Assembly (NCBI GenBank): GCA_018812905.1
Contig: JAHJCN010000034.1
Span: 1-43,305, forward strand
Length of the DNA: 43,305 bases
Reading direction: 5' to 3'
From: Patescibacteria group bacterium
Lineage (GTDB): Bacteria > Patescibacteriota > Patescibacteriia > Magasanikbacterales > GWA2-37-8
How positions within the stretch are numbered: position 1 is the first letter of the stretch; every line of letters begins with the position of its first letter. The notes beneath the pieces are model-generated. The model was given only the letters and a program-made list of their open reading frames with translations. It made no database searches and was not told the origin of the DNA. The position numbers and the translations under genes were made by a program. Shown one piece after another: positions 12,619-43,305 of the stretch.

Positions 12619-12626
12619 GCTTGCAT

Positions 12627-14804
12627 ATGAAAGCAAACACCCCGATTGATCAATTAAACAAGGTTGGAAAAGCCACGGCTAGACGCCTTGAGCGGTTGGG
12701 AATACGTACTGCTCTAGATTTATTGTATTTTTTTCCTTTTCGCTATGAAGATTTTAGCCGGGTGGCGTTCATAGCCGAATTGATGGACGGGGAAAACGTG
12801 ACAATAAAAGGTAAAATAGAAGTTTTGGGCAACAAGCGTTCTTGGAAAAAAGGAAAAATGATCACTGAGGCTTTGGTTTCGGATTCTTCCGGCAGTGTGC
12901 GCGTGGTTTGGTTCAATCAGCCATATATCGCAAAAGTTCTCAAGCCAGGGGATGAAATATATTTGTCCGGAAAAGTTAAAAGCGACATGCTTGGTCCGCA
13001 GTTTGCTAGTCCGGCCTATGAGAAGTCCAACAGGGACGAAACCACTCACACCGCCAGACTTGTTCCTATTTATCCGGCCACAGAAGGTTTGTCTCAAAAA
13101 CAAATTAGATTTTTGGTGAGTCAGGTTTTGCCGCTTGCTGAAAAAATCACCGAATGGCTGCCCGAAGAATTTTTGGAGAAAAACGATCTTGTGCCTCTTC
13201 CCGCCTCGCTGAAAGGCATCCATTTTCCGGTTGATGAGATTGATCTTAAAAAAAGTACGGAACGGCTTAAGTTTGGAGAGCTGTTTTTGCTTCAGCTTAA
13301 GGCCGAATTGACGCGAAGGGAGAAGATGGCTGTTGTGGCGCCGGCGCTGTCTTTCAAAGAAAAAGAAATTCAAGAGTTTGTAAAAAAATTGCCATTCACA
13401 TTGACCAAAACGCAAAAGGTGGCAACTTGGGACATCTTGCGCGACATTAAAAAAACCGTACCCATGAATCGATTGTTATCCGGCGATGTTGGGTCGGGAA
13501 AAACAGTGGTGGCGGCAATTTCCATGCTTGACGCGGTTTTGAACGGTTATCAGGCGGTGCTTATGGCGCCGACGGAGATTTTGGCGAAGCAACATTACGA
13601 CTCATTGTGTAAATTGTATGAAGGTTCAGATGTTAAAGTGGGGCTGTTGACTCGCTCGCAAGCGCTTAATTTTCAATTTTCAATTTCTAATTTGCAATCA
13701 ATTTCCAATGATTCAGTTAATAAACGGAAGAAGAGTCTGATAAAAGAAATTAAGGATGGGCAGGTGCAAATTGTTGTGGGCACTCACGCGCTATTATCCG
13801 AAAAGGTTGAGATGAAGAATTTGGGTTTGGTGGTGGTGGATGAACAGCACAGGTTTGGCGTGGAACAACGAAAAATGATAAAGAACAAAGGGAAAGGCGC
13901 GCATTTTTTGAGTATGACCGCCACGCCGATTCCGCGTTCTTTGGCTCTTATGATTTACGGCGATTTGGAGGTTTCCACAATAAACGAAATGCCGCCCGGA
14001 AGAAAGCCTATTATTACGCGTCTAGTTGAGTCTCATAACAGGCAAAAGGCCTATGATTTCATTCGCGCGCAAATAAAACAGGGGAGACAGGCGTTTGTGA
14101 TCTGTCCTCTCATCTCGAATTCCGCAACGTGCAACGCGCAGTGCGATAACGGTCAAGACGATACAGGTTGCACGTTGCACGTTACACGTTACGCGTCCAC
14201 CGTGTCGGACGAAAAGAAAGCCGTACTTTCGGAATATGAAAAACTTTCCAAGACGATATTCCCCGATTTGCGCGTAGGGTTTTTGCATGGAAAATTAAAA
14301 CCGACGGAAAAGGAGAAAATCATGGATAATTTTTCCACTAAAGGCGGAAAAAATCACGTAACAGACATCCTTGTTTCGACTTCAGTCGTAGAAGTTGGAG
14401 TGGACATTCCCAATGCCAGCGTAATGATGATAGAAGGGGCGGAGAAATTCGGCTTAGCTCAATTACATCAATTTCGCGGCCGAGTAGGCCGTTCGAGTAA
14501 CCAGTCCTATTGTTTGCTCTTCAGCGACTCTTTATCAAAAAAGGCCGAGGAGCGTTTGAAGTTTTTTGAAAAGACACTGGACGGCTTTAAACTGGCGGAA
14601 AAAGACTTGTCCATGCGCGGTCCCGGGCAAGTTTATGGCACTTTGCAGAGTGGACTGATGAATTTGCGTTTGGCAAAATTAACGGATACGGATATAATTA
14701 AGAAGGCGCGAGAAACTGCCAAAACCATCGTAGCAGATTTAAATAATTTTCCTTCCATTTTGCGCAAAATCAAGGAGTGGGAAGGGAATGTGCATTTGGA
14801 ATAA
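12627..14804 (+). CDS. recG: ATP-dependent DNA helicase RecG
   Basis: This 725-residue branch-migration helicase acts on stalled forks and recombination junctions. An N-terminal wedge/OB domain (about 55-150) precedes a helicase core with GDVGSGKT (about 287-294), DEQHRFG (about 405-411), MTATPIPRSL and the C-terminal GRVGRSSNQSYC. Two stretches interrupt conserved blocks: residues about 347-361 (NFQFSISNLQS, repeat R6) and about 499-525 (CNAQCDNGQDDTGCTLHV, repeat R5). Both are in frame, so the gene is intact. The ATG at 12627 is chosen because the upstream TTG falls only two bases after the -10 box. It precedes the Nudix-fusion gene by nine bases, suggesting one transcript. Confidence 0.95.
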   Translation: MKANTPIDQLNKVGKATARRLERLGIRTALDLLYFFPFRYEDFSRVAFIAELMDGENVTIKGKIEVLGNKRSWKKGKMITEALVSDSSGSVRVVWFNQPYIAKVLKPGDEIYLSGKVKSDMLGPQFASPAYEKSNRDETTHTARLVPIYPATEGLSQKQIRFLVSQVLPLAEKITEWLPEEFLEKNDLVPLPASLKGIHFPVDEIDLKKSTERLKFGELFLLQLKAELTRREKMAVVAPALSFKEKEIQEFVKKLPFTLTKTQKVATWDILRDIKKTVPMNRLLSGDVGSGKTVVAAISMLDAVLNGYQAVLMAPTEILAKQHYDSLCKLYEGSDVKVGLLTRSQALNFQFSISNLQSISNDSVNKRKKSLIKEIKDGQVQIVVGTHALLSEKVEMKNLGLVVVDEQHRFGVEQRKMIKNKGKGAHFLSMTATPIPRSLALMIYGDLEVSTINEMPPGRKPIITRLVESHNRQKAYDFIRAQIKQGRQAFVICPLISNSATCNAQCDNGQDDTGCTLHVTRYASTVSDEKKAVLSEYEKLSKTIFPDLRVGFLHGKLKPTEKEKIMDNFSTKGGKNHVTDILVSTSVVEVGVDIPNASVMMIEGAEKFGLAQLHQFRGRVGRSSNQSYCLLFSDSLSKKAEERLKFFEKTLDGFKLAEKDLSMRGPGQVYGTLQSGLMNLRLAKLTDTDIIKKARETAKTIVADLNNFPSILRKIKEWEGNVHLE
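13667..13710. repeat. R6 A/T-rich repeat inside recG
   Basis: Near-tandem TTTTCAATTTTCAATTTCTA-type units, the same kind as the tract at 33849-33950, encode NFQFSISNLQSISN between the TRSQ segment and the helix before the DEQH motif. The insertion keeps the frame. Confidence 0.7.
14123..14197. repeat. R5 repeat (GTTACACGTTACGCG family) inside recG, copy 2
   Basis: Left GCAACGTGCAACGCGCAGTG and right GCACGTTGCACGTTACACG form an imperfect inverted pair and match R5 copies at 5796-5898 and 33128-33199. It is translated as part of a Cys-containing insert not expected in RecG. Confidence 0.75.
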
Positions 14805-14813
14805 ATATTTTTT

Positions 14814-17183
14814 ATGAGCGAAACAAAGATGTCGGAGGTATTGGTGCATGGAGTTGATGCTGAACCAGCCAGAGAAAAAGAAGCGGTCAGACGCGTGTCA
14901 AGAATCTTTTTGACTCGATCAAAGTCCGCCGATAAAATCATCAAAGAAATTTTGGCGGGAAAAAATCCCGCAGATATTAAATTTATCACGGCAAAATGGA
15001 TTGAAAAAGATGAGGGTAGTGAAAACCCGCGTCAACTAATGCCGGCAGGTGGAAAAATAAAGCCGGATGAGACAGCCGAGGCGGCGGCCATTAGAGAAGC
15101 TCTGGAAGAAACCCATCTGCGCGCGGCAGATGTTGAAGGATTGGGAAACATTCGTTATAGTTTTCATCATAAAAAATCAAATCAAGAATTAACCGTGGAC
15201 GAAACGCTTTTTATCGGAAAAATCTTGCCTTCGGATGTGGCTTATCCGCTTGACCCAAAGGAAGATAAAATCGCGGGTTTCCACGATCTTGATGTGGATG
15301 AATTGGCTAAGCTTTTTGAAAAAGGCCAAATCAACAAGGAAAGCGTTGATCACGCGCTACATTTGCTCGGGCATTTGAATGTGAAAGATTCAGAAGAAAA
15401 AAAAGATCCCAAAGAAGTGCAAATTGTTTTGGATAAATTTATTAAAAAAATGAGAGACAAAGAAATTGATAAAAAAAAGAGTATTTTTAAACATCTGCTT
15501 GGGTTAATGGTGCAAAATGATTTGTTGGTGCATGAGGGAGCTGAATATTGGCTTGAACAATTTAGCATTGCCGGGTATGATCAACAAGAAAATGAAGATT
15601 TTATTAGAAGGTTTTGGGAGTTTTTTGGTGAAGCAAAAGAAATTGTTCCCAGTAATAAAAAAGACGCGAGTTTAAAGCAAAACCTTCTTTGCCGCGCGGT
15701 TGATTTAAGTAATTTTGAGGAGGAGATAGAAAGCGCGAACAAATTGGGTTCAAATATTGAAGCAACCATTCGGTCCATTTACGCGCTTTTGGAGGCCAAA
15801 TATTATAGCGAACATTATTTGCAGATAATGGCTGAAAACGAGAAGATGAAAGGGTTTGTGGGTGGACTCACGCGATTTTCTGAAGCAATTTCAAGCGGAG
15901 GCGAAACTCTAGAACAAAAATTTCTCAATTTAGGCAAAGCAAAAGATAAGGCGGAGGAGCAAGACAAGATAGTTAAAAGTTTTTTGTACGAATTTGGTTT
16001 GGACAATGAGCTTGTTGGCGAGACGCTAGACGCCACTGACTCCTTTCTTTTTGAGATGCATCAAGATGCTACCAAGCACGAGAGAGAAAAAAGTAAGGAG
16101 GAGGGGATTAAATTCACTTTTGACGATCAACTGGAGGAAGTGAAGGGGGGAGACGTTTTTAGCTTGTTGGAAAAAGCCTTTCCGTCCGGGAAGGATGCCA
16201 CATGGAAAAAGAAATTGGAACAGGTTGGTTTTAAAAACGAAGAAGAAAAACATAAATATCTCCGTACTGTTGTTTATGAAGCCAGACGCAAGCTGGCTCT
16301 TTTGTATGTTTTTAAAGATGCGATAAAATATTATGAAGGGATGAAGGATTATCGGTCCGGTGAGTTGGCTCAGAAAAGGATTTGGGGAAAAGTTTACGAA
16401 GCGCCGTTAAAGTATCTTGCAACCGAAAAAAAATATGAAAACCATGTTTTGAAAGATGTTGCGGAAAAAATTTCTGATGAAGGAGAGGGAAGTCCGGCTG
16501 TGAGAATAATTTCAAATAAATATTATTGCACGATGGAGACCGCGCCGATGAAAGAGCTTAATTCTTTTTTGCGAAAGAAGATTGTGCGTGGAATTGATAA
16601 TGATAGCGAAATTAAAGATTTGTATAGGCGTTCGATCGTTTTGCATAGCGGCAAGGATGACGAAGCGGATGCCAGATTGTATACAAGGGACAGTCAGCCA
16701 ATTGAGCACATGGATAGAATAAAAGGAAAGGGCGGAAAATCGGTAGGAGCGTTTAATGAAATAAGGGCGGTAAAAGATGTGATGGAAGATATTTTATCTC
16801 AAGGAGAAGATGTGGAAATTGTATATTATGATCCGACCCCGCGGGTGGGTCAAAAATTTGCGAGCAAAGGCGCGGGTGGAGGAAGCAAGATCAGGATGTG
16901 TAAGTTTTATGTAAAATTTGGCGACGAGCAAAGCCGGACGCATTACGAAGAGGTGCAAGTATATTTGCCGAGCGTGGATGAACAGGGCAACGTCAAACAT
17001 GCTTCATATTATCACGCGGAGAAAAAACTTGATGATGATACATATAAGCTTAATAGGCTTTTTGATACGAAAACCATGCACTCATTCGTGGATTTGCTGT
17101 ATCCGCCGGGGGTATATGGCCATGCGGTTAGAGAATTGTTCGGTTCGGCGACAAAAGAAAAAAAGAAAAAGAAGAAGTGGTAG
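14814..17183 (+). CDS. Nudix-domain protein with a long uncharacterised C-terminal region
   Basis: This 789-residue protein begins with a Nudix hydrolase domain (about 25-175). The Nudix box is at 80-102 in the GX5EX7REUXEEXGU pattern: G80, E86, R94-E95, E98-E99, with H101 in place of the usual glycine. All metal-binding glutamates are present, so hydrolysis of a nucleoside-diphosphate-linked substrate is plausible. The remaining approximately 600 residues match no family I know: they are charged and mostly helical to about 580, then mixed alpha/beta (about 580-760), ending in a lysine run (KEKKKKKKW). A second ATG (14829) is also possible. It lies nine bases after recG. Confidence 0.8.
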   Translation: MSETKMSEVLVHGVDAEPAREKEAVRRVSRIFLTRSKSADKIIKEILAGKNPADIKFITAKWIEKDEGSENPRQLMPAGGKIKPDETAEAAAIREALEETHLRAADVEGLGNIRYSFHHKKSNQELTVDETLFIGKILPSDVAYPLDPKEDKIAGFHDLDVDELAKLFEKGQINKESVDHALHLLGHLNVKDSEEKKDPKEVQIVLDKFIKKMRDKEIDKKKSIFKHLLGLMVQNDLLVHEGAEYWLEQFSIAGYDQQENEDFIRRFWEFFGEAKEIVPSNKKDASLKQNLLCRAVDLSNFEEEIESANKLGSNIEATIRSIYALLEAKYYSEHYLQIMAENEKMKGFVGGLTRFSEAISSGGETLEQKFLNLGKAKDKAEEQDKIVKSFLYEFGLDNELVGETLDATDSFLFEMHQDATKHEREKSKEEGIKFTFDDQLEEVKGGDVFSLLEKAFPSGKDATWKKKLEQVGFKNEEEKHKYLRTVVYEARRKLALLYVFKDAIKYYEGMKDYRSGELAQKRIWGKVYEAPLKYLATEKKYENHVLKDVAEKISDEGEGSPAVRIISNKYYCTMETAPMKELNSFLRKKIVRGIDNDSEIKDLYRRSIVLHSGKDDEADARLYTRDSQPIEHMDRIKGKGGKSVGAFNEIRAVKDVMEDILSQGEDVEIVYYDPTPRVGQKFASKGAGGGSKIRMCKFYVKFGDEQSRTHYEEVQVYLPSVDEQGNVKHASYYHAEKKLDDDTYKLNRLFDTKTMHSFVDLLYPPGVYGHAVRELFGSATKEKKKKKKW

Positions 17184-17235: not shown

Positions 17236-17275
17236 GGTATTGATATTTTTGAAGTGCGGGGAGGATGTCGTTATT

Positions 17276-17357
17276 GTCATTGCGAGGAGCCCGCGAAGGT
17301 GACGAAGCAATCTCTTCGTCAATGGGATTGTTTCGTCGCTCCGCTCCTCGCAATGAC
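17276..17357. repeat. R1 palindromic repeat, full copy between convergent genes
   Basis: Ends are GTCATTGCGAGGAG and CTCCTCGCAATGAC, with inner GACGAAGCAATC and GATTGTTTCGTC, so the whole 82-bp unit is an imperfect palindrome. A right-end fragment (CTTCCTCGCAATGACA) recurs immediately after at about 17373-17387, next to the radA stop codon. Confidence 0.9.
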
Positions 17358-17390
17358 AAGCTTATTTAACTCTTCCTCGCAATGACAGGC

Positions 17391-18833
17391 CTACTTAATA
17401 ATTTTTTCCACAACCTCTTGCACGTTTTTTATTGAAGCGATTTTTAAACCGGGGATTTTAGGCAAATCCGGATGGTGGGGGACAACTGCGAAATCAAATC
17501 CCATTTTTTTAATTTCTTCCAATCGTTTTTTTATTTGTGGCACCGCGCGAACTTCTCCGCTCAAACCCACCTCGCCAAAAGCGGCAAGATTTTTTGGAAT
17601 CTCTTTGTTTTTTGTGGCCGATGCAATGGCCAAGACCACAGCCAAGTCCGCGGCCGGTTCTTCGGCTGTGAGTCCGCCGATTACATTAAGAAAAATATCG
17701 TAAGTATCCAATGGTAAGCCGGCGCGTTTGCTCAAAACAGCTGATAACATTTGCAAACGGTTGGTGTCAAAACCGGAAACTTTGCGCTGGGGAAAACCAA
17801 AGGCGGTTTTTGTCACCAAGGCTTGGATTTCCATGAGGAGCGGGCGAGTGCCTTCCATTAAACATGTTACGGCCGAACCCGGCACGTTTTCCGGACGGCC
17901 GGCGAGCATCGCGGCGGATGGATTTTTTACTTCAACGAGTCCGTTTTCATCCATGGAAAAAATTCCAACTTCATCGGTGGAGCCAAAACGGTTTTTGGCC
18001 GCGCGAAGGACGCGAAATTGGTGGAAGCGATCGCCTTCCAGATAGAGCACGGTATCAACCAAATGCTCCAAAGTTTTTGGGCCGGCCACATTGCCTTCTT
18101 TGGTCACTTGGCCAATGAGAATGATAATCGTGCCTGAAGATTTGGCTGTTTCCATCAGCTTCACGGTGCAGACGCGCACTTGGCTCACACCACCGGCTTC
18201 TCCTTCAACTTCGTCGGAGTGGATGGTTTGAATGGAGTCGATGACGGCTATTCTATTGTCATTGCGAGGAGCCTGCGAAGGCGACGAAGCAATCCCACTG
18301 TTTGGTATTGTAGGCGAAGAGATTGCTTCGTCGCTACGCTCCTCGCAATGACAAGCGCGAATCGTCGCGATAATACTCTCCACCCCAGTCGCATTTCCAA
18401 TCCGCAACGTATCCGATTTTATTTTTAATCTCTCCGCCCGCAATTTTATTTGCTCCACGGATTCTTCTCCGGAAATATATATGGTATTTGGAATGATGGA
18501 TGCGATTTGGGCGGCCAGCGTGGATTTGCCGATGCCCGGTTCACCGCCTAAAAGAACAAGAGAGCCCGGAACAAGGCCCCCTCCCAAAACTCTGTCCAAT
18601 TCTTCAATTCCAGTTTTTATCCTCGCGACATTTTTTCCTTCTATTTCCTTGAGTGTATTTGTTTTTACCGCGGGGTATTCATTTTCTTCTGATTTTTGAT
18701 TTTTTTCTCTGTCGCTTCCGGCGGTGGATTTTTCAATCGTGCCCCATTTCCCGCATTCTAAACACCTGCCCGTCCATTTTGTGAATTGAGCATCGCAGTT
18801 GGAACAAATGAAGATTAAACTATTATTTTTCAT
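17391..18833 (-). CDS. radA: DNA repair protein RadA (Sms)
   Basis: This 480-residue RecA-like ATPase promotes branch migration and processing of recombination intermediates. The N-terminal C4 zinc finger is C10, C13, C24, C27. The Walker A GEPGIGKS is at 97-104, SGEES at 121-125 and the RadA-specific KNRFG at 280-284. A Lon-protease-like C-terminal domain follows to 480. Between IIATIRA (154-160) and RIAVIDSIQT (194-203) there are 33 extra residues encoded by a complete R1 palindrome, in frame, placed just before the Walker B strand. It is the last gene of the minus-strand run that starts with clpC. Confidence 0.96.
   Translation of the reverse strand: MKNNSLIFICSNCDAQFTKWTGRCLECGKWGTIEKSTAGSDREKNQKSEENEYPAVKTNTLKEIEGKNVARIKTGIEELDRVLGGGLVPGSLVLLGGEPGIGKSTLAAQIASIIPNTIYISGEESVEQIKLRAERLKIKSDTLRIGNATGVESIIATIRACHCEERSDEAISSPTIPNSGIASSPSQAPRNDNRIAVIDSIQTIHSDEVEGEAGGVSQVRVCTVKLMETAKSSGTIIILIGQVTKEGNVAGPKTLEHLVDTVLYLEGDRFHQFRVLRAAKNRFGSTDEVGIFSMDENGLVEVKNPSAAMLAGRPENVPGSAVTCLMEGTRPLLMEIQALVTKTAFGFPQRKVSGFDTNRLQMLSAVLSKRAGLPLDTYDIFLNVIGGLTAEEPAADLAVVLAIASATKNKEIPKNLAAFGEVGLSGEVRAVPQIKKRLEEIKKMGFDFAVVPHHPDLPKIPGLKIASIKNVQEVVEKIIK
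18258..18352. repeat. R1 palindromic repeat inside radA
   Basis: A complete GTCATTGCGAGGAG...CTCCTCGCAATGAC unit, 95 bases (99 with the flanking TT/AA), is translated on the minus strand as 33 residues starting CHCEERSDEAIS and ending APRNDN. Confidence 0.92.
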
Positions 18834-18881: not shown

Positions 18882-20369
18882 TCATTCGGCCGAAGGAAAC
18901 GTTTTTATACACGCACCGGTATTTGGATAATCTGCTGAGGTAAAATGAGCTGTGGTATTAAGACCTATTTTTTCCCATATAAATCGTCGAGGATCGGCGT
19001 GGCTTGCTCCTTTTACTTGGCAATGGCCTATGACGTGTGTATCATCAAATCTTACCGATGTCCTTTGAGTAATTTGTTGAATTAATGTTTTAAGCGCATC
19101 GTATTGTTCGTTTGTATAATTGGAGCATGTTTTAAAAGTTGGGCTGGCCGGATTTGAAGAACAGCCTGCTGGGGTTGCTAGATCAATACCAATAGCTCTA
19201 ACGTTGGCGGCTTCAGCGTGATTCGTGATATATTCTTCCCCTGCGACTTGGTAGATTTTTCCTTCCCGATCAATAATATATTGAGCCAAAATTTGATAAC
19301 CTAATTTTCTTGTTGTTCCAATCCATGCTCCGATAGTCTGATCGGGAGAACGTGCGCCCTCGTGAATTACGACAGTATCTATTTTGTTTAAAGCACGTTT
19401 GCTTTTTTCGCTGATTATACAATCCCATGCTCCAAAATATTTATTATCCCCCGTTGCGTAAATTGATTTTGGTTCGGCAGGTGTTGTCCCGGCGCAATCA
19501 ACATCTTTGCCGGTTTCTGCTCCAGCACCTAATCCCGTATCTCCAAATGGTATGGAGAGAGATTCTGTAGCAATATATTTCACCCTCAAAGCCGTAAAAC
19601 TCACCAGCGCCGGATTGATAGTGTACATGATTGCGTATGACCCCCAAAGAATCATCAAACCCAAGAGAATTTGTCCAATACGTTTGTAGCCTGCTGTTTT
19701 TCCTTCGCCTCCGCCAGAAAGAATAATCCGTACTCCTTGAACGATAATCATTATCACCGCGATAATGCTGGCCATGGCCACTCCGAATTTATACATGGCG
19801 GCGATATATTGGCCGAGCCAGGGAATGTAGAGGTATCCTTGTTCATCCACCGCGGATTCAAGCTTCGTAAAATCTAGGCCTGGAATTTTGATGGCCAATT
19901 TGTCGGAAATATCTTCGGTGATGTTGGTTACTTCAATTTTTGAGGCGGCAGTTGGGTTTAAAAGAAAATTTATCGCTTTACTAAGGGGCGACGCCACATC
20001 AGTTGGTGGAATGGCAAAAAAAATGTCTTCTTTGTTTGTTGCCACACAGTAATCTAATTTATATGTCGCGTCAAAACCATTTATACAACGCCATTCTCCG
20101 CCGTGAGCCGGCGCGTCGTATCTATTAAAACAATCTTCAGAATTTGAAATTCCCAATTCATCACAGTCACAATACCATTCATTATTTCCGGACGCGTCCT
20201 TTTTGCTGCTTTCTTCGCAGTCTTCAGACAAACATTGATCATTGTTTTGGCATTTGTCCCCAATTTTTAAAGTTGCTTCCGCGGAGACAAATCCGGATGG
20301 AAGAAGCAGGAAAAATAAAAAAAATAAAAGATAACTTGTGGCGACAGCTTTCATTTTATTTTTTTGCAT
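18882..20369 (-). CDS. Exported Cys-rich protein with T4SS-pilin-like membrane pair and zinc N-acetylmuramoyl-L-alanine amidase domain
   Basis: This 495-residue protein has a signal sequence (hydrophobic 11-29, possible cleavage after VSA30). A Cys-rich module with eight cysteines follows (40-108). Two hydrophobic helices (about 193-217 and 230-256) separated by a short Gly-rich, basic loop (SGGGEGKTAGYKR) resemble VirB2/TrbC-type pilin subunits found in Patescibacteria. The C-terminus is an Amidase_2/PGRP domain (about 328-470) with the AmpD-like zinc set H336 (VVIHEG), H449 (IGHC) and D459 (HADP), so it should cut peptidoglycan stem peptides. It follows the DsbA-like gene by five bases; that enzyme could form its disulfides. 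Individual domains are confident; the combined role is inferred. Confidence 0.85.
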   Translation of the reverse strand: MQKNKMKAVATSYLLFFLFFLLLPSGFVSAEATLKIGDKCQNNDQCLSEDCEESSKKDASGNNEWYCDCDELGISNSEDCFNRYDAPAHGGEWRCINGFDATYKLDYCVATNKEDIFFAIPPTDVASPLSKAINFLLNPTAASKIEVTNITEDISDKLAIKIPGLDFTKLESAVDEQGYLYIPWLGQYIAAMYKFGVAMASIIAVIMIIVQGVRIILSGGGEGKTAGYKRIGQILLGLMILWGSYAIMYTINPALVSFTALRVKYIATESLSIPFGDTGLGAGAETGKDVDCAGTTPAEPKSIYATGDNKYFGAWDCIISEKSKRALNKIDTVVIHEGARSPDQTIGAWIGTTRKLGYQILAQYIIDREGKIYQVAGEEYITNHAEAANVRAIGIDLATPAGCSSNPASPTFKTCSNYTNEQYDALKTLIQQITQRTSVRFDDTHVIGHCQVKGASHADPRRFIWEKIGLNTTAHFTSADYPNTGACIKTFPSAE

Positions 20370-20374
20370 ATTAA

Positions 20375-21034
20375 TTATTCTACAAATTTATCCAACATTT
20401 TTTTCAAATCCACGCCTTCATCCAAATTTATTTTTTTATTGTTTACAAAAACCGATGGCAAGGATTTAATGCCAAGAGATTGCGCCAAAAGCATGGAAGT
20501 GTCGGCCTTGGATTGGGCGTCCGGTGTGTTGGCGCATTGCCATAGAGCATCGGCGTTAAGCCCGGCATCTTGCGCTACTTTTTTTATTTGCGTTTCATTA
20601 AAAGACATTTTTTCGCGCATGGCCGTTTCAATGAATTTGAACTGCTCGCCGTCGCCCTGCAGAGACGCGCAATAGACCGAGGCTCCGGCCAGTTTGTTGG
20701 TTTGAAAAAAATAATGTGGGATGGCGGTGTCTTTCCAAATCAATCTTGCGTTTGAAGGATTTTGTTTAACAAAATCGCTGATTAGCAAATGCGTGGCGCG
20801 ACATTCACGGCAATCCAAACTGCAGAATTCCACAATGGTAATCGGAGCGCCAGGGTTTCCAAACACGGCATCGCTTTCGTCAATGGGAATGTCGTAGGAT
20901 ACCGCGCTTATTATTGGTTCTTTGCTGGGATGAGTGGTAATATTTTGGAATTTATTGAATTGAGATATGAAAACCAGCAAAAGAATCGCCACGATCAGAG
21001 TAAAAAGGCCTATGAATTTTTTTTCTTTTGACAT
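20375..21034 (-). CDS. DsbA-like membrane-anchored thiol-disulfide oxidoreductase
   Basis: This 219-residue protein has an N-terminal signal anchor (7-24) and an extracytoplasmic thioredoxin-fold domain of the DsbA/DSBA-like thioredoxin_4 type. The redox motif is C75-R-E-C78, preceded by an extra C71 (VEFCSLDCREC). The cis-proline loop is KSLPSVFVN near 195. It probably oxidises or isomerises disulfides in exported proteins; the Cys-rich amidase fusion five bases downstream is the obvious client. A TATAAC nine bases before the ATG suggests a leaderless transcript. Confidence 0.9.
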   Translation of the reverse strand: MSKEKKFIGLFTLIVAILLLVFISQFNKFQNITTHPSKEPIISAVSYDIPIDESDAVFGNPGAPITIVEFCSLDCRECRATHLLISDFVKQNPSNARLIWKDTAIPHYFFQTNKLAGASVYCASLQGDGEQFKFIETAMREKMSFNETQIKKVAQDAGLNADALWQCANTPDAQSKADTSMLLAQSLGIKSLPSVFVNNKKINLDEGVDLKKMLDKFVE

Positions 21035-21043
21035 AGTTATACT

Positions 21044-21049
21044 GTTATA
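21044..21049 (-). promoter_or_regulatory. Candidate -10 of the dsbA-like gene, leaderless spacing
   Basis: TATAAC (minus strand, 21049-21044) ends nine bases before the ATG at 21034. No convincing -35 is visible. Confidence 0.4.
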
Positions 21050-21080
21050 TTTTTATTTACAGGGGGAACGATTGCGGTGG

Positions 21081-21115
21081 GATTGCTTCGTCGCCTCCGG
21101 CTCCTCGCAATGACA
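21081..21115. repeat. R1 half-repeat
   Basis: GATTGCTTCGTCGCC followed by GGCTCCTCGCAATGAC is the right half of R1, abutting the stop codon of the propeller-like gene. Confidence 0.85.
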
Positions 21116-21116
21116 G

Positions 21117-22349
21117 TTAAATATTCACTTCAAACACTCCGCTCTGCGCGGAATCTGTAAAAAACAGTTTGTTGTTTTTTTGATCAAAGACCATTTCTTT
21201 TATACGATAATCTCCGCCCAGAGGAACACCTTGCTTGAGGCCGGTTCTGGCGTCAATGCGAAATAAATCATAATAGCTGTTGCTCACAACAGCCGGAGAA
21301 ATACCAGCGCCCTGTGGCATATCGCGCGGAACAGCGCAATAGACAACATCATCATCGGCAAAAGCGCATTTGTCGGCCCATGTGTTTAATTGCAGAGCTT
21401 GCCGACCGCTTCCGATTTGATCTCCGGAGGAATTAACAATCCATAATTCCGGTTTGAAATCACTGCGCGCGCTGTAAACACTGTAAATTAGTTTGTTGCC
21501 GGTGGGAGACCATGAAGGTTGGAAGCCCAAACCTTCAACAATAGTTGACTTAAAATTTTCATGATTTTGGCCCACAAACAAAACTTCCCGGCGATAACCG
21601 CTTTGAGCCTCGCCGGTTTGAGCAAAAGCCAGCACTTGGCGGTTTGGCGACCAGTCAACGATAACTTGATCGGCGTTGTTGCCCATCGGCTCAATTGTTT
21701 TGGTGCCGGTGCCATCGTCATTGGTGGTGATGAGCCAGCGGTTTTCCGGAGATAAGCCCATGCTTTTGGCGACAATTTGTCCTCCTTCCGGAGAAAAAGA
21801 AAACTCGCTCCAGTGCTTGGGTAAAGTTGTGGTTTGTTTTTGCAAATTAAAATTATACACCACCTTTGAGCCGTCCGGGTATTCCAACACGGCTTTGTCT
21901 TGGGTTTTTGCCCAGGTGACATTGGAAACATTGTAGAAAACTTGATCGGTGAGCGCCTGCGGTATCCCATCTGTTCCAATGCGATAGAATTTTCCATCGG
22001 CGGTATTGTGATAGCGCACAGAAGCGGAAGATTCGTTGAGGGATGGAAAAGCGGCGGATTCGGAGGTGAGTCGAGTGACAGGCGCGGGTTGCGCGTAGGA
22101 TGGTGTCGGAGGTTGTGGAATGACTCCGGCGGATGGCAGAGCTGGCGCGGTGGGAGGGGTTGGCTCTCCGGTTGGCGGTACGGCTTCGCCTGATGGAGGC
22201 AAAGCGCCTGGTGTGATGATTGGCCGGAGGCTCGGAATAATTTGGCTGATTGGCACTTTTTTGAAAAAAACAAAATAGATGCCAAGTCCGATAACAGCGG
22301 CCAGCAGCAAAAGGAGGGTGATTAGCAAAATACGTTTTAGGCCGGACAT
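21117..22349 (-). CDS. Membrane-anchored protein with beta-propeller-like repeats
   Basis: This 410-residue protein has an N-terminal membrane anchor (6-29), a Pro-rich linker (about 44-92) and an extracytoplasmic domain. That domain repeats strand-rich blades with TolB/PD40-like patterns: for example FSPEGGQIVAKS, WSPNRQVLAFAQ and WSPTGNKLIYSV, spaced about 50-60 residues apart. The W/F-SP-x-G motif is characteristic of these six- or seven-blade propellers. A scaffold or binding role at the cell surface is likely. It lies between the three-helix membrane protein and the dsbA-like gene. The 3' end abuts an R1 half-repeat. Confidence 0.8.
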   Translation of the reverse strand: MSGLKRILLITLLLLLAAVIGLGIYFVFFKKVPISQIIPSLRPIITPGALPPSGEAVPPTGEPTPPTAPALPSAGVIPQPPTPSYAQPAPVTRLTSESAAFPSLNESSASVRYHNTADGKFYRIGTDGIPQALTDQVFYNVSNVTWAKTQDKAVLEYPDGSKVVYNFNLQKQTTTLPKHWSEFSFSPEGGQIVAKSMGLSPENRWLITTNDDGTGTKTIEPMGNNADQVIVDWSPNRQVLAFAQTGEAQSGYRREVLFVGQNHENFKSTIVEGLGFQPSWSPTGNKLIYSVYSARSDFKPELWIVNSSGDQIGSGRQALQLNTWADKCAFADDDVVYCAVPRDMPQGAGISPAVVSNSYYDLFRIDARTGLKQGVPLGGDYRIKEMVFDQKNNKLFFTDSAQSGVFEVNI

Positions 22350-22351
22350 AG

Positions 22352-22384
22352 AAAATTTAAAATTTAAAAAACAAAATGAAAAAT
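22352..22384. repeat. R6 A/T-rich repeat
   Basis: AAAATTTAAAATTTAAAAAA and following A-rich units occupy the 37-base gap upstream of the propeller-like gene. Confidence 0.5.
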
Positions 22385-22386
22385 AT

Positions 22387-23313
22387 TTAAGCTGCTTCCA
22401 TCACCGGGCTCGTGGGTGCTTCTCCTATTCCGCCTCCCGCTCCTTCAACTCCGCCTATTTTTGGAGGAGCTCCGCCCTCTTCTCCTTCGCCGGCGCCAAG
22501 TTGCTGTTGCCTATTTACCGCGCTGGTGTATTGAAATGTGTCTTGGCTCATTCTTTGCTGAATTTCTTTGTTTCTTTCAGCTTTGCCCTTCCCTGTTATT
22601 CTTAAGTTTTCAGTCAATAATTTCAGAGCGCCTTTATTTTTTTTCAATTCTTTAAGAGCTTCAGTTTCCATCAGCAGAACGCCTACCGTATAACTTGGAA
22701 AGGCATTGATGATTGGAATAAATTCTATAACTACGGCGGCAATCAAGGGCCAAATTAGCATTTTAATTATTTGTCTTTTAAACCAAGTGCCTTCACCCCA
22801 GAGAAGGGCGAACATTACTGCGTCTAAAAAAATACTGATAATCGTGGAAATTGCCCCCGCGTCCAGAAATTCTTCTATTATGTTCCATCCATCAGTGACG
22901 AGCGATAAAATGATGGCAATAATAAAATATGTAAAGGCTCCACTTTTTATTCTTGCGTTAAGTTCTCGGCCGTATTTCTGGCCAGCCTGCTCGGCGCTAC
23001 CGGCAGCCATGTCTGTGGCATTTTGTTCAAAACTGATGCCCTGCTCATTCATCAATCTCTTTATCCTCATGTCTTCCTGAACTTGTTGCGTCATCTTTGC
23101 TTTTCTTTCCATCTGCCTTTGGCTATACATGTCTGTTTCGTTTTCTTCACCTTCGCCCTCATCCACCATCATAGGCGGAGCAACACCAAGACGGGCGTTC
23201 CAGCCGGTTGCCAGGGAAATTTGTTGCGTAGGAGCTTTGGGTGGTTGCGCGCCACCACTCATTGGCATGGGCGACCCTCCCACTGGTGTTGATTGTGGTG
23301 TTGCCTCCGGCAT
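22387..23313 (-). CDS. Multi-pass membrane protein, possible secretion or pilus accessory (uncharacterised)
   Basis: This 308-residue protein has a Pro/Met-rich disordered N-terminus (1-50), a charged helical segment (60-120, with RQMERKAKMTQQVQEDMRIK), three hydrophobic helices (about 126-141, 152-172 and 183-207) and a cytoplasmic-type basic helix followed by a Gly/Glu-rich tail (about 270-308). It has no enzyme motif. Its place between clpC and the propeller, DsbA-like and pilin-amidase genes, with short gaps, suggests a part in the same envelope system. That is inference from context. I do not recognise the family. Confidence 0.7.
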   Translation of the reverse strand: MPEATPQSTPVGGSPMPMSGGAQPPKAPTQQISLATGWNARLGVAPPMMVDEGEGEENETDMYSQRQMERKAKMTQQVQEDMRIKRLMNEQGISFEQNATDMAAGSAEQAGQKYGRELNARIKSGAFTYFIIAIILSLVTDGWNIIEEFLDAGAISTIISIFLDAVMFALLWGEGTWFKRQIIKMLIWPLIAAVVIEFIPIINAFPSYTVGVLLMETEALKELKKNKGALKLLTENLRITGKGKAERNKEIQQRMSQDTFQYTSAVNRQQQLGAGEGEEGGAPPKIGGVEGAGGGIGEAPTSPVMEAA

Positions 23314-23396: not shown

Positions 23397-25916
23397 TTAA
23401 GAAGCGGTTAGCCGATCATCTTTCACTTCCAATTTATATTTCTCCTTCACCTTTTCCTTTAAAATAATTTCAGCCATCAAGTTTTCCACTTGCGCCCGTA
23501 CCTCGCGACGAATGTCGCGCGCTCCGGTTTTTTGGCCGTTCATTTGCGCGATTATCCACTTCAATATTTTTTCATCTGTTTTTAAGTTTGTATTGTATTG
23601 CGCCAGGCGACCGTTAAGTTCCAGCACTTCCAGTTCGGCAATTTTGATTAAATGTTCGCAAGAAAGGGGGTTGAATACGCAAATTTTATCCAGACGATTG
23701 ATGATCTCGGGTGAGAAAAATTCTTTCAATTTTTCTTCAATCATTTTCTTGCTTTCTCCTTTGTTGTCGTCCGCGTGCCCAAAACCAAAAACGCCCTTTT
23801 TTGCCTCTTCAGCGCCATAGGTGGTCGTCAATATTATTATAGCATGTTTTAAAGAAATTTTCTTGCCTGTGGAGTCGGTGATTTCACCATTCTCTAAAAT
23901 TTGCAAAAGAAGCTTGGTAACATCGCGATGAGCCTTGTCAATTTCGTCAAAAAGCAAAATACAATAGGGGTTCATTTTTACGCGGTCGGTAAATTGATTG
24001 GATTCTTTGTATCCAACGTAGCCGGCAGGGGAGCCAAGAAGTTTGGACACGCCAAAGCTTTCATTGAACTCGCTCATATTAAGCTGGATTAAGGCGTCCG
24101 CGTTGGGGTAGAGTTTTTTTGCCAAAACTTTGGCCATCTCGGTTTTGCCTACACCGCTATCACCAATGAAAAGAAAAGAAGACAGTGGACGATTGGGGTT
24201 GGATAAATTCAATTGGGCTTGGCGAATCGCGCGGCTTATTTCGGTCACGGTTTCATTTTGGCCCACTATATGTTTTTGGATTTCTTTTTCCAAACTAATA
24301 AGCCGATCTTTTTCTTCCAAAAATAATTCGCTGGGCGGATTTCCGGTTATTTTACTCACTTGTTCTGCCACATCGCGCATTGTGACGGTTCCGGCGGTTT
24401 TTATCTTTTTAGATTTGGCTGTCTCTTCGTTCTTTTTTATTTCCACCAAAATATCTTCTTCTTCCTTTTTCCACTTCACGGCTTCTTCAAATTTATCTTC
24501 ACTCGCGGCTTTTTCTTTTTCCAATGTGGCTTTGTCCAATTTTTGTTTCAAACGGGCAAGCTTGCTGTCTAATGAAGAAATTTTAGCTTTTAATCTTTTG
24601 GCGGCAGATGTTTCGTCCAGAAGGTCGATGGCTTTGTCTGGCAAAAATTTGTTGGAGATGTAGCGATTGGATAAACGCACGGCCGCTTCCACGGCTTCGT
24701 CCGTTATTTCCACATTATGGTAAAGCTCATAATTTTTCTTCACGCCTTTCAAAATTTTCACAGTATCTTCCGGGCTTGGTTCTTTCACGTGCACCGGCTG
24801 AAAACGGCGTTCCAGAGCCGCGTCGCTTTCAATGTATTTTTTGAACTCCGCCGGAGTAGTGGCTCCGATACAGCGAATTTGTCCGCGCGCTAAAACCGGT
24901 TTTAAAATATTGCCCGCGTCCATTGTGCCTTGGTTGGAGCCGGCGCCCACGATGTTGTGAATTTCATCAATGAATAAAATGATATTTGTGTCTTGCGCGA
25001 CCTCCTCCATCACTTGGCGCAAGCGCCCTTCGAATTCACCTCGATAGATGGTGCCGGCAATGAGAAGTCCCATGTCCAAAGCGTAGATTTTTTTGTTGAG
25101 CAGTAAATCGGGCACGTCTCCGGCTAGAATTTTTTTGGCCAAGCCTTCGGCAATGGCGGTTTTGCCAACGCCCGGATCACCTAAAAGCACAGGATTGTTT
25201 TTGGTGCGACGAGATAAAATTTGTATAACCCTTTCAATTTCTTGATCTCGGCCTATAACCGGGTCAATATTTTTTTGCGTTTCCGTATTGGTTAAATTGG
25301 TGGCAAAAAAATCCAAAGCTGTTTCTTTGCGCTTAGCTCCTTTTTTGTTTTGCAGGCTTTCCATTTCAGGCGGCTGCAAAACGTCGTTGAGGGAATCTTG
25401 AATCCGATCAACCGCCTCGGCCACTTCGGTGATCTGCGGGAATTGCGTGGCATTGGCCAGAACCGTTTGCAGTTGCTTTTCTAAATCCGCTTTTTTGATG
25501 GTGTTAATCTTCCAAATTTCTTTCAAAATGGAATCGGAAATTTCCACAAGCGCGCATAACAAATGTTCGGTGCCGATGTAGTTGTGGTGATTTTCGTGCG
25601 CAATGAACATGGCTTTTTCCAGAGCCATTTTGGAGGCAGGGGAAAAGGGGGTAAGTACGATTTGCGTTGATTGCTTGGTGGCCGGAGACGCCGGCGGTTC
25701 TTTGGTGGCGGGCAAGTTCAAAATTACTTGCTCAATAATTTTTTGTTCTATTTTGAAGCGCGACAAAATTTCACCAGCCACAGACCCTTTTTGGGTGAAA
25801 ATGGCAAAAAAAAGATGAATCGGTTCCACCATCGGATTTTTAAGTTCTGAAGCCAAATGTATACTGCGCGTTAAAACGTCTTTGAGATGAGAGGAGAAAC
25901 GATCTGTTATGTTCAT
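23397..25916 (-). CDS. clpC: ClpC-type AAA+ unfoldase
   Basis: This 839-residue Hsp100 protein unfolds substrates, normally for ClpP. A Clp_N double repeat covers about 1-150. AAA1 has GDPGVGKT (246-253), ILFIDE (313-318) and the ALERRF arginine finger (367-372). A middle UVR-like coiled segment (about 445-495) contains [18 protein letters not shown]2 has GDSGVGKT (585-592) and LLFDEID (654-660). GVFGFG (708-713) is a candidate ClpP-contacting loop. The short middle region argues for ClpC over ClpB. ATG at 25916 is ten bases after a TATAAT, so the mRNA may be leaderless. It heads the long minus-strand run. Confidence 0.94.
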
Positions 25917-29397: not shown

Positions 29398-29406
29398 CTT
29401 TTTATT

Positions 29407-29487
29407 GTCATTGCGAGGAGCCCTTTGGTGACGAAGCAATCTCTTACTTCGATGGGATTGCTTCGTCACTACGATCCTCGCAATGAC
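29407..29487. repeat. R1 palindromic repeat between rseP and pheS
   Basis: A full copy with GTCATTGCGAGGAG and GATCCTCGCAATGAC ends and inner GACGAAGCAATC/GATTGCTTCGTC. It fills most of the 104-base gap; the pheS ATG lies 14 bases after it, with no Shine-Dalgarno motif. Confidence 0.92.
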
Positions 29488-29501
29488 ACAAAAGTACATA
29501 T

Positions 29502-39564: not shown

Positions 39565-41832
39565 GTGAAGTTTAAAATTCACTCGAAATATAAACCTGAA
39601 GGCGACCAACCCAAAGCCATCGATGGGTTGTTTTTTGGCTTAAACAAGGGCATGAAAAAACAAATCCTGCTTGGAGTCACCGGTTCGGGTAAGACTTTTA
39701 CTATCGCCAATGTGATAGAAAAGGCTCAGATGCCTACCTTGGTTATTGCCCACAACAAAACTTTGGCCGCCCAGCTTTGCAATGAATTCCGTGAGTTTTT
39801 CCCGGATAATGCCGTGGAATATTTTGTGAGTTACTATGATTATTATCAGCCGGAGGCATATATTCCCAGTTCCGATACATACATTGAAAAAGAGGCCATG
39901 ATAAACGAAGAAATTGATCGTTTGCGACATGCTTGTACGCAGGCATTGCTCACTCGTCGCGATGTCATTATTGTGGCTTCTGTTTCAGCCATCTATGGTT
40001 TAGGCTCGCCCAAAGAATATGAAAAAATAGTTTTGCATTTACATTCCGGACAAGAGCTCAATCGCCGAGGCATGCTGGAGCAGTTAATCGCCATGCAATT
40101 TGAACGCACCAATAGCGACCTTACGCGCGGAAGCTTCCGAATGACCGGCCCGGTGTTTGAAATTGTTCCAGTGAATGAAGAAATGATTTATCGTTTGGAA
40201 ATCGGTGACAAAATCAATCGTATTGAAATGGTTGATCCGGTGACCAGAAAAGTAAAAAAAGGGTTGGAAGATATTTGGCTCTTTCCGGCCAAACATTATG
40301 TGGTGGGTGAACAGCAAAAAGAGAAAGCGTTCGCGTCTATCCGCCATGAACTCGGCGAACAATTGAAAAATTTTGAAGAACAAAAAAAAGTGCTGGAGCA
40401 TGAAAGATTAAAACGCCGTGTCAATTATGATTTGGAAATGATAAAAAATATCGGATATTGTAATGGCATTGAAAATTATTCCCGCCATTTTGATAACCGC
40501 ACCCCCGGCGAACCCCCATTTACTTTGCTTGATTATTTTGCGCACAATCATGTCGTTACGAGGAGCGAGCGACGCCTGTCCGCCTTTGGCGGGAAGCATT
40601 CTCTCGCTTCAAAAGATTGCCACGTCGGCCTTCGGCCTCCTCGCAATGACAACGCAGGGATTGCCGCGTCGTCCGCTCCGCGGCCTCCTCGCAATGACAA
40701 TTTTGATGGTTTTCTCACCATCATTGATGAGTCGCATGTGACTGTACCGCAAATCGGCGGTATGTATTTCGGTGACAAATCCAGAAAAGATGTTTTAGTT
40801 GATCACGGCTTTCGTTTGCCTTCGGCGCGAGATAATCGTCCACTCACCTTTGAAGAATTTGAAACACGCGTTGGACAAACAATTTATGTTTCGGCGACGC
40901 CCAGGGATTTTGAATTGCAAACATCGGATCAAGTGGTGGAGCAGGTTGTGCGCCCCACGGGACTTATTGACCCTGAAGTGATAATTCGTCCGGTGACAGG
41001 GCGAGCTCCAAGTGTCATTGCGAACGAAGAGAAGCGCTCTCACAATAAACAGACCAGCGAAGGGATTGCCACGTCGCCTTCGGCTCCTCGCAATGACAAT
41101 CGTAATTTGTCTCAAATTGAAGATTTGATAATTCGTATTGAAGAGCGTGTCCTACAAAACGAAAGAGTGTTGGTAACCACTTTGACCAAAAAAATGGCTG
41201 AAGATTTATCGGAATATTTGGAAAAGAAAAAAATAAAAGTGAAATACATGCATAGTGGTATAGAAACCATTGAGCGCATTGAAATTATTATGGCTTTGCG
41301 CAAGGGAGACATCGATGTTATTGTTGGCGTGAATTTGTTGCGCGAGGGCCTGGATATGCCGGAGGTTTCTCTGGTGGCTATTCTGGACGCTGATAAAGAG
41401 GGTTTTTTGCGCAACGCGACGAGTTTGATACAAACCATTGGCCGCGCGGCCAGGAACGTGAACGGCCAAGTGGTGCTTTATGCGGACAATATCACGAAAT
41501 CCATCAAAAAAGCGATTGACGAAACGGAGCGCCGCCGTGAAATTCAGGTGTCTTACAACAAAAAACACGGCATTACGCCGAAGACGATTGAAAAAAATAT
41601 TCGCAATATTTTGGAGGAGTTTGGGATTGGACGAAACATACGAAATACGAAAGGTACGAAAGTACGAAAGCGTGATAGTGAAATTACACGGTTGGATCTG
41701 ATTGGAGATGCCCGGCCGTTGCCGGAGATTATTAATGATAAAGAAAAGCAAATGAAAGAAGCGGCTAAAAATTTGGAATTTGAATTGGCGGCCATATTGA
41801 GGGATGAAATTCGCGAATTAAAGAGAAAATAG
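39565..41832 (+). CDS. uvrB: Excinuclease ABC subunit B (UvrB)
   Basis: This 755-residue damage-verifying helicase subunit hands damaged DNA from UvrA to UvrC. The GTG at 39565 gives the classic start [16 protein letters not shown]; the upstream TTG is the promoter -35. Walker A GVTGSGKT is at about 37-44, the beta-hairpin region [15 protein letters not shown] follows, then [15 protein letters not shown], and REGLDMPE and QTIGRAARN helicase motifs. A C-terminal UVR motif ends the protein. Three repeat-derived inserts (about 330-378, 484-511 and 692-703) make it roughly 80 residues longer than the usual 660-680. All are in frame between conserved blocks. uvrA starts one base after the stop. 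Confidence 0.96.
40552..40698. repeat. R1 palindromic repeat inside uvrB (insertion 1), with nested hairpin and duplicated right half
   Basis: GTCGTTACGAGGAGCG opens the unit. A TCCGCC-TTT-GGCGGG hairpin (R8) is nested at 40579-40593. Two right halves follow, each ending CTCCTCGCAATGAC. The length is 147 bases, exactly 49 codons. Confidence 0.88.
41014..41097. repeat. R1 palindromic repeat inside uvrB (insertion 2)
   Basis: GTCATTGCGAACGAAG on the left and GGCTCCTCGCAATGAC on the right enclose 84 bases, exactly 28 codons. It sits where UvrB normally reads the short VTGQVDDL-type link. Confidence 0.88.
41636..41671. repeat. R7 repeat inside uvrB (insertion 3)
   Basis: ACATACGAAATACGAAAGG followed by TACGAAAGTACGAAAG encodes [11 protein letters not shown] near the C-terminus. 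Almost the same DNA is in uvrA at 42281-42315. Confidence 0.75.
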
Positions 41833-41833
41833 T

Positions 41834-43305
41834 ATGCAAGACAAAATTATAATCAAAGGCGCGCGCGAACACAATTTGAAAAATATTTCTTTGGAGCTTC
41901 CGCGCAATAAAATGATTGTATTTACGGGCTTGTCCGGATCGGGTAAGTCGTCTTTGGCATTTGACACTATTTTTGCCGAGGGGCAAAGACGCTATGTGGA
42001 ATCTCTTTCGGCCTATGCTCGTCAGTTTTTGGGAGGCATGCAAAAGCCGGATGTTGATGAAATTGAAGGCCTGTCGCCGGCCATCTCCATTGACCAAAAA
42101 GCGCACAGCGCCAACCCGCGTTCCACGGTTGCCACAATCACGGAAATTTATGACTATCTGCGCGTGCTGTTCGCTCGCGCCGGCAAGCCGTATTGTCCGT
42201 TGTGTGGAACAAAAATTGAAAGGATGACAACGGATGAGATGAAGAGCAGCATCCTGAATAATTTGAAGTTCGATGATGACATACGAAATACGAAAAGTAC
42301 GAAAATACGAAAAAATGGCGAGCGGGAAATTCTATTGTTATCTCCGGTTGTTCGCGGGCGCAAAGGGGAGTATTATCAGATGCTCTATGATATTTACAAT
42401 TCCGGCTATTTGGAAGTGCGCGTGGATGGAAAGATGTATAGTTTGAAAGAGAGAATAATTTTGAGTAAAAACAGCAAGCATACGATTGAAGTGGTGGTGG
42501 ATAAGATTGTCATTGCGAGGAGTGATGAAAGAGCGACGAAGCAATCCCAAACATCGGCAAAAAACAACGGGATTGCTTCGGACGCATCTGTCGGCCTCGC
42601 AATGACAGATGACGCCGATCGTCGATTGTCCGAAGCCATCGCCAATGCCGTGGATTTGTCCAATGGTCTTTGCACGGTAATTTTTCCGAATGGGAACGAG
42701 CAGATATTTTCCACAGAATATTCTTGTCCTAAAGACGGTTTTTCTTTTCCCGAAATTGAACCGCGACTTTTTAGTTTCAACAGTCCGTATGGATCTTGCG
42801 AGGCCTGCACCGGCCTTGGCATTAAAGGGTTGTTTCCCGCCATAGGCGGGTTCGCCTCTGGCGGAAGCGAAGAAGAGTGTCCGAAATGCCACGGCAAACG
42901 CCTGAATGATAACGCGCTTAGCGTGAAAATTGCCGAAAAGAATATTTGGGAGATAACCAGTTTGAGCATTGCCGATGCCAGGGATTTTTTTGCGGGTATT
43001 GAAGAATTTTTGTCGGACAAAGAAAAAGAAATTGCAGGAGCCGTACTGCGCGAAATCAACAATCGTTTGCAATTTATGTTTGACGTGGGTTTGCATTATC
43101 TCACGCTCAACCGCAAAGCCGGAACGTTGTCCGGCGGAGAGGCCCAGCGTATTCGGCTGGCATCGCAAGTGGGCACACGGCTGGTTGGCGCCCTCTATGT
43201 GTTGGATGAGCCGACTATTGGTTTGCATCAACGCGACAACGACCAATTGGTAAAAACTTTGCGCAATCTTTGCGACGCGGGAAATACTATTATCGTGGTT
43301 GAGCA
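41834..43305 (+). CDS. uvrA: Excinuclease ABC subunit A (UvrA), 5' part, runs off the window
   Basis: The first 490 codons of the damage-recognition ATPase are present. Walker A GLSGSGKS is at 32-39, YARQFLGGMQKPDVD follows, the ABC signature LSGGEAQRIRLASQ starts near 432, and Walker B VLDEPTIGLHQRDN follows. The start ATG lies one base after uvrB. Three repeat-derived stretches occur: about 150-160 (IRNTKSTKIRK, R7), about 226-257 (R1) and about 335-345 (R8). The first zinc module reads C298-P-K-D301 ... C322-E-A-C325, with Asp replacing the usual second Cys. The insertion domain between GLG (327-329) and the next CPKC (349-352) is only about 19 residues. Other motifs are intact. Confidence 0.95.
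   Translation, partial: MQDKIIIKGAREHNLKNISLELPRNKMIVFTGLSGSGKSSLAFDTIFAEGQRRYVESLSAYARQFLGGMQKPDVDEIEGLSPAISIDQKAHSANPRSTVATITEIYDYLRVLFARAGKPYCPLCGTKIERMTTDEMKSSILNNLKFDDDIRNTKSTKIRKNGEREILLLSPVVRGRKGEYYQMLYDIYNSGYLEVRVDGKMYSLKERIILSKNSKHTIEVVVDKIVIARSDERATKQSQTSAKNNGIASDASVGLAMTDDADRRLSEAIANAVDLSNGLCTVIFPNGNEQIFSTEYSCPKDGFSFPEIEPRLFSFNSPYGSCEACTGLGIKGLFPAIGGFASGGSEEECPKCHGKRLNDNALSVKIAEKNIWEITSLSIADARDFFAGIEEFLSDKEKEIAGAVLREINNRLQFMFDVGLHYLTLNRKAGTLSGGEAQRIRLASQVGTRLVGALYVLDEPTIGLHQRDNDQLVKTLRNLCDAGNTIIVVE
42281..42315. repeat. R7 repeat inside uvrA
   Basis: ATACGAAATACGAAAAGTAC followed by GAAAATACGAAAAA encodes IRNTKSTKIRK in the UvrB-binding region. Confidence 0.75.
42509..42606. repeat. 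R1 palindromic repeat inside uvrA
   Basis: GTCATTGCGAGGAGTG and GACGAAGCAATCCC on the left, GGGATTGCTTCGGACG and CCTCGCAATGAC on the right. It is read in a different frame from the radA copy (VIARSDERATKQS). Confidence 0.9.
42836..42868. repeat. R8 double hairpin inside uvrA
   Basis: CCCGCC-ATA-GGCGGG is followed by TTCGCCTCTGGCGGAAGCG, two small GC hairpins of the TCCGCC/GGCGGA type. They sit exactly where the UvrA insertion domain is missing. Confidence 0.65.

Follow-up and report, generated by a model that had tools for sequence, protein, structure and literature searches.

A Patescibacteria group bacterium of the order Magasanikbacterales carries a cassette of four intact adjacent minus-strand genes, flanked by clpC and radA, on contig JAHJCN010000034.1 of assembly GCA_018812905.1. 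The stretch analysed here, referred to as the window, comprises positions 1 to 43,305 of this contig. One gene of the cassette encodes a protein of 495 amino acids (aa), in which a two-helix module assigned to the pilin family of type IV secretion systems (T4SS) is combined with a predicted zinc amidase. Only the pilin module is conserved among the homologues, and the enzyme is exchanged. The protein is probably a VirB1-like wall hydrolase that serves the patescibacterial T4SS, anchored in the membrane and exchangeable. The genome (G000; the window is G000:C123) amounts to 992 kb in 137 contigs at 96% completeness, and the closest named relatives of the window belong to Candidatus Magasanikbacteria, class ABY1 of Patescibacteria. 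The genes of the cassette and the parts of the fusion protein are as follows.

18882..20369, minus strand: pilin-module/amidase fusion protein, 495 aa (open reading frame, Pfam, homologue alignment, AlphaFold)
20280..20369, minus strand: putative N-terminal signal segment of the fusion, ~residues 1-30 (hydrophobic N-terminus; helix 2-22 in the AlphaFold model)
20025..20279, minus strand: Cys-rich extracytoplasmic region of the fusion, ~residues 31-115 (variable or absent in homologues)
19572..19898, minus strand: T4SS_pilin-type conserved module of the fusion, ~residues 158-266 (PF18895 in homologues, hhalign, model)
18987..19388, minus strand: Amidase_2 domain of the fusion, residues 328-461, zinc ligands H336, H449 and D459 (Pfam, alignment, Foldseek)
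20375..21034, minus strand: DsbA/thioredoxin-like membrane-anchored protein, 219 aa, CxxC (CREC) at residues 75-78 (Pfam, neighbour comparison)
21117..22349, minus strand: membrane-anchored beta-propeller, 410 aa (Pfam, class survey)
22387..23313, minus strand: 308-aa protein with a disordered N-terminus and hydrophobic segments (only the position is conserved)

A first-pass annotation, made from the sequence alone, had described a Cys-rich module, a two-helix module and an amidase in one protein, with zinc ligands at H336, H449 and D459 and a DsbA-like gene five bases away. Translation and alignment place the modules and ligands exactly there, and the coordinates, the 5-base gap between the fusion gene and the DsbA-like gene and the intact reading frames were confirmed. 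The same annotation had an anchored propeller and a three-helix protein preceding this pair; both genes are present and the 308-aa protein has visible hydrophobic segments, although the number of three helices comes from reading the sequence only. Pfam matches on the window proteins are Amidase_2 (4.5e-17, residues 328-461), Thioredoxin_4 (2e-16) and PD40 (4.5e-05).

The assignment of the two-helix module to the T4SS-pilin family (PF18895), also anticipated by the annotation, is supported by several sequence comparisons. PF18895 is matched at E<=0.01 by 41 of 58 fusion homologues, and its curated cut-off is exceeded by the fusion orthologues L041, L050 and L054. A profile built from 45 modules aligns in hhalign with the short pilins and pilin-bearing proteins of the bacterium's own genome over 67 columns (probability 98.4, E 6.8e-15), and the NCBIfam family of pilin-like conjugal transfer proteins weakly matches homologues (L130). 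AlphaFold predicts a hairpin at residues 183-217/222-251 with a pLDDT of about 90-95, consisting of two hydrophobic helices and a short loop, an arrangement expected of PF18895 members. The fusion differs from the small pilin-only proteins of that family in its size of 495 aa and its additional domains.

The C-terminal half is an AmpD/T7-lysozyme-fold zinc amidase as judged from profile, predicted fold and three ligands, all of which fit. Foldseek matches its fold to AmpD, T7 lysozyme and peptidoglycan recognition proteins (PGRPs), and H336, H449 and D459 align with His, His and Asp in all seven amidase-type homologues. Recent capture of the amidase from a phage was considered and rejected, as phage amidases are only 25-34% identical (best E 3e-5). 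The N-terminal region, which contains eight cysteines, is predicted to be exported, with the hairpin in the membrane and the enzyme outside, a topology expected from the putative signal segment and the extracellular substrate. Counts of Lys and Arg around the hairpin (loop 2.7, pre-helix 1.0, post-helix 2.3) are compatible with this topology under the positive-inside rule but not decisive.

Conservation among the fusion homologues is confined to the pilin module and short flanks, and the C-terminal enzyme differs from one to the next. Pfam classes found on homologues comprise Amidase_2, VanY/M15, SLT, SLT together with GDSL, M23, C39_2, Glucosaminidase and 3D, where the 3D match and some of the M15 and M23 matches fall under the curated cut-off; further homologues carry NlpC/CHAP- or lysozyme-like domains that were assigned by eye. 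On these domain assignments, the conserved hairpin, which keeps its gene position, carries wall enzymes of at least six kinds. In the sister pairs L115/L119, L088/L090, L106/L130 and L121/L126 the modules are 47-93% identical, and the C-termini are no closer to each other than shuffled sequence. For L115/L119, the N-terminal region is 59% and the module 73% identical, with unrelated C-termini; in the contrasting pair L102/L104, the C39 domains are 64% identical. These sister comparisons show that at least several of the changes are true domain replacements, and some others may reflect differential loss of tandem copies. Mapping of the first enzyme on a tree of the propellers from 39 loci requires 25 changes, compared with a mean of 24.7 with shuffled labels (16 versus 16.4 if restricted to the Pfam-type classes). 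Thus, enzyme type shows no detectable signal of descent at the present sampling. The annotation's proposal that a wall hydrolase has a pilin module as its base is well supported, and it is more general than proposed, as the enzyme is interchangeable. The envelope penetration and substrate transfer envisaged in the annotation gained no support.

The gene neighbourhood is conserved as well. The first-pass annotation had named a lack of conservation here, combined with helices unlike the pilin family, as grounds for refutation, and neither was observed. The fusion protein finds a match in all 25 genomes searched in the window's family, and wherever their contigs allow, ClpC, membrane protein, propeller, DsbA, fusion, RadA and RecG follow one another in this order, which is conserved across Magasanikbacteria. 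The corresponding flanking genes of the window are listed here.

23397..25916, minus strand: ClpC-type ATPase, upstream boundary of the conserved block (Pfam, synteny)
17391..18833, minus strand: RadA, downstream boundary of the block (synteny)
12621..14804, plus strand: RecG, which flanks the block in relatives and occurs in T4SS loci of the class (synteny)

A nucleotide-pattern search with the propeller retrieved 80 named loci in Magasanikbacteria, Uhrbacteria, Falkowbacteria and unclassified Patescibacteria, many of which keep the same order and contain one, two or three fusion genes in tandem. Outside ABY1, Patescibacteria have pilin modules fused to NlpC/P60 (L196) or weakly SLT-like (L195) domains, so the fusion principle is not limited to this class. 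At two Falkowbacteria-type loci (L117, L157), the propeller gene is divergent from a type IV pilus-like cluster (PilM, PilN/O, GspE, PilT and PilC by inspection), and ComF-like genes then follow.

The association with type IV secretion comes from relatives and from elsewhere in the genome. The proteins listed for the window include no VirB4, VirB6 or VirD4, as the annotation had noted, a result judged from the protein listing and not from a profile search of every gene. On contig 32, the genome encodes a FATA-type T4SS locus with VirB4 (CD1110 family, 2.8e-107), PrgI (8e-11) and TrsD. A class-wide search of 144 ABY1 genomes for virB4 and the module found both in 119, virB4 only in 12, the module only in seven and neither in six; this presence/absence association is not relied on, because both are near-universal and the absences are confounded by incomplete assemblies. 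In at least 46 of the 119 genomes having both, the module lies within 15 kb of virB4 on the same contig, compared with about 6% expected if about two modules were placed at random in 1 Mb. Nearly all of the 20 virB4-linked loci that were read have PrgI, TrsD and VirB4 adjoining a block of RadA, pilin plus enzyme, (DsbA) and propeller, mostly together with a VirB8-like gene, and the fusions at virB4-linked loci carry SLT, M23, VanY, Amidase_2 or C39 domains according to Pfam. In L209, L210, L211, L213 and L215, one co-directional gene series runs across the T4SS genes and the cassette. This contiguity in related ABY1 lineages makes it the simplest inference that the cassette of the window is a downstream part of the cluster that was split off in the window's family. 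The genes comF, recG and radA have independently been reported at ABY1 T4SS loci in a published survey (PMC12102498). Six loci (L208, L210, L211, L213, L215 and L217) encode a different pilin-module protein between the virB4/VirB8-like genes and the propeller, which has a Cys-rich tail and no recognised enzyme and is a candidate for a further T4SS component.

According to the preferred explanation, the cassette would be the detached downstream part of a FATA-type patescibacterial T4SS gene cluster. The fusion would be exported and held in the membrane by its VirB2/PF18895-like helical hairpin, with both flanks outside, and the zinc amidase would cut the N-acetylmuramic acid-L-alanine bond. The hairpin would serve as a conserved chassis and the enzyme as a replaceable tool, acting like VirB1 by opening the peptidoglycan locally where the secretion machine or pilus must pass. 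The scattered and rapidly exchanged enzyme types suggest that the target wall varies between close relatives, as the wall of a host would, and fit this better than the bacterium's own wall. The bacterium is probably host-dependent.

Several observations weigh against this explanation. The module of the window itself stays below the Pfam reporting level for T4SS_pilin. The structural check proposed in the annotation gave a high-confidence hairpin but retrieved no solved T4SS pilin: the Foldseek comparison was uninformative, with no hit at E<=0.001 and no pilin among the best 50, hairpins being poor queries. Searches of PDB sequences with the module and the whole protein were empty or gave noise. 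Within the family of the window, cassette and virB4 are 70-100 kb apart on shared contigs, and in the window's genome virB4 is on another contig; three genomes of at least 99% completeness (G205, G358 and G366) contain the module and no virB4 match. Furthermore, a giant adhesin-like protein is apparently held by the same hairpin, which may therefore be an anchor only. This protein of 3879 aa (L060:5406-17045, G000 contig 114) starts with a T4SS_pilin module, behind which lie TIG/Ig-like and Laminin_G domains, and its gene directly follows that of a 695-aa pilin-bearing protein.

Such an anchoring function leads to the alternative that the hairpin is a generic membrane anchor without a T4SS role and that the hydrolases remodel the bacterium's own wall during growth, division or recycling. 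The genome encodes Mur ligases and the bacterium probably makes its own peptidoglycan, which together with the giant Ig/LamG protein and the separation from virB4 in the window's family favours this alternative. It is nevertheless considered unlikely, because the cassette is contiguous with the T4SS cluster in many ABY1 lineages, a random distribution of enzyme classes on the tree is unusual for housekeeping wall enzymes, and comparable fusions also exist outside the class. A stronger, non-exclusive form of the preferred explanation makes the fusion a minor pilin, with its hairpin built into the T4SS pilus, probably at the tip, and its enzyme boring through the host wall. The homology of the module to the arrayed short pilins of the same genome and the presumed location of both flanks outside are consistent with such a role, as is the presence of T4SS pilins in Southlakia epibionticum, where they are essential (PMC10633639); modular tip pilins with grafted functional domains are known from type IV pili (PilB, PMC8179133). 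Yet polymerisation into a pilus would have to be presumed, the hairpin has no fold match among solved pilins, and the flanking domains of homologues, which reach about 380 and 460 aa on the two sides of the module, would hinder packing, which leaves this form doubtful. Equally tentative is the proposal that VirB2 and VirB1 functions are fused in one modular protein, with the chassis residing in the secretion pilus and the enzyme being swapped as new host walls are met. It appears very improbable that the enzymes are released effectors of predation or competition and that the pilin module merely directs their secretion or retention: the rapid turnover of enzyme types resembles that of weapon systems, but the module is conserved across the class, and neither an immunity gene nor a cleavage site was noticed, although neither was searched for systematically.

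A further alternative concerns the DsbA-like neighbour, which could be a dedicated oxidative folding enzyme that forms a functional unit with the Cys-rich fusion. The close spacing of the two genes, the CREC motif of the window copy and a second DsbA/pilin pair on contig 94 speak for it. The enzymatic role presumed in the annotation does not hold up in relatives, however: CxxC is lost in 12 of 47 DsbA-like neighbours, whose second Cys pair is invariant, and the gene is missing at some loci. Moreover, proteins without CxxC mostly keep Cys-rich partners (6-14 Cys), and several with CxxC have Cys-free partners. A general role of DsbA in folding the Cys-rich region was rejected, since loss of CxxC is unmatched to Cys content; by sequence comparison, catalysis by DsbA is not conserved within the unit, and a dedicated pair seems quite unlikely. 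The second pair (L059:10756-13054), which includes a 477-aa pilin protein without a recognisable enzyme, is bordered by an OppA-like gene and by uvrA; L064 shows the same arrangement.

All 22 ABY1 genomes sampled contain the propeller, and the 265 genomes sampled from the rest of the phylum lack it. It is a candidate for a so far undescribed component of the same machine. It was rejected as a TolB orthologue, because TIGR02800 scores 19.4 bits against a cut-off of 343 and only PD40 repeats pass. The 308-aa protein has no significant family match; its position is occupied in relatives by proteins that are disordered, contain hydrophobic segments and show no sequence similarity that could be detected.

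Elsewhere in the window, a 789-aa NUDIX-domain protein (NUDIX 4.7e-10; 14814-17183) adjoins recG, and homologues occupy the same position in some relatives (L040, L049, L053 and L071). The window also contains a repeat element formed by inverted pairs of TGTCATTGCGAGG, with 19 matches versus 1.4 expected (<=2 mismatches). One copy lies in frame within radA; the gap between the DsbA gene and the propeller gene holds a half copy. Its copies are located as follows.

17275-17358, 18257-18353, 21103-21115, 29406-29488, 40639-40699 and 42508-42607: copies of the TGTCATTGCGAGG repeat, half copy included

According to a 2025 survey, which counted PF18895 pilins near virB4, VirB1 is absent from most Patescibacteria that have VirB2 pilins, and its role might be filled by other enzymes (PMC12102498). 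The fusions are concrete candidates for this missing role in ABY1, with examples beyond the class, and they offer a testable explanation of how peptidoglycan, be it the bacterium's own wall or that of a host, could be crossed by a secretion machine or pilus. Should enzyme exchange follow the host, the genome sequences of uncultured lineages could give hints to their hosts, and if the chassis is indeed part of a pilus, enzyme type could help to predict the host wall. In an experimental study, T4SS genes and pilins were essential (PMC10633639). No description of pilin-hydrolase fusions was found in the open-access literature, and priority therefore cannot be claimed.

Among known systems, VirB1 proteins of Gram-positive bacteria are membrane-anchored and have one or more extracellular enzyme domains (PMC12857230). 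The fusion shares with VirB1-type hydrolases (TraG of pIP501, PrgK of pCF10, VirB1) a wall-cutting enzyme, whose gene accompanies those of the T4SS in the window's relatives. It differs from them in that its anchor is a pilin-family hairpin and its enzyme type is exchangeable; the VirB1-type enzymes carry SLT, often with CHAP or LytM, whereas the protein of the window carries Amidase_2 and SLT is found in some homologues. The cassette is also detached from the virB4 locus in the window's family, though linked to it in many ABY1 relatives. With the PF18895/VirB2 pilins of Patescibacteria (PMC12102498) and NF045849 (Mbov_0395) the fusion has in common a homologous two-helix module with a short glycine-rich loop, and it occurs in the same class of genomes, often near virB4. 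The patescibacterial VirB2 pilins are small, in contrast to the fusion of ~500 aa, in which the module is flanked by enzyme and Cys-rich domains. Grafting of functional domains onto a pilin module is likewise seen in the modular type IV pilin PilB of Streptococcus sanguinis (PMC8179133), which belongs to another pilin superfamily (type IV filament) and another machine and bears an adhesin as its graft. The enzyme itself resembles the AmpD, T7 lysozyme and PGRP amidases (PF01510) in fold and zinc ligands, with only distant similarity to phage amidases, but is predicted to be exported and anchored by a pilin module.

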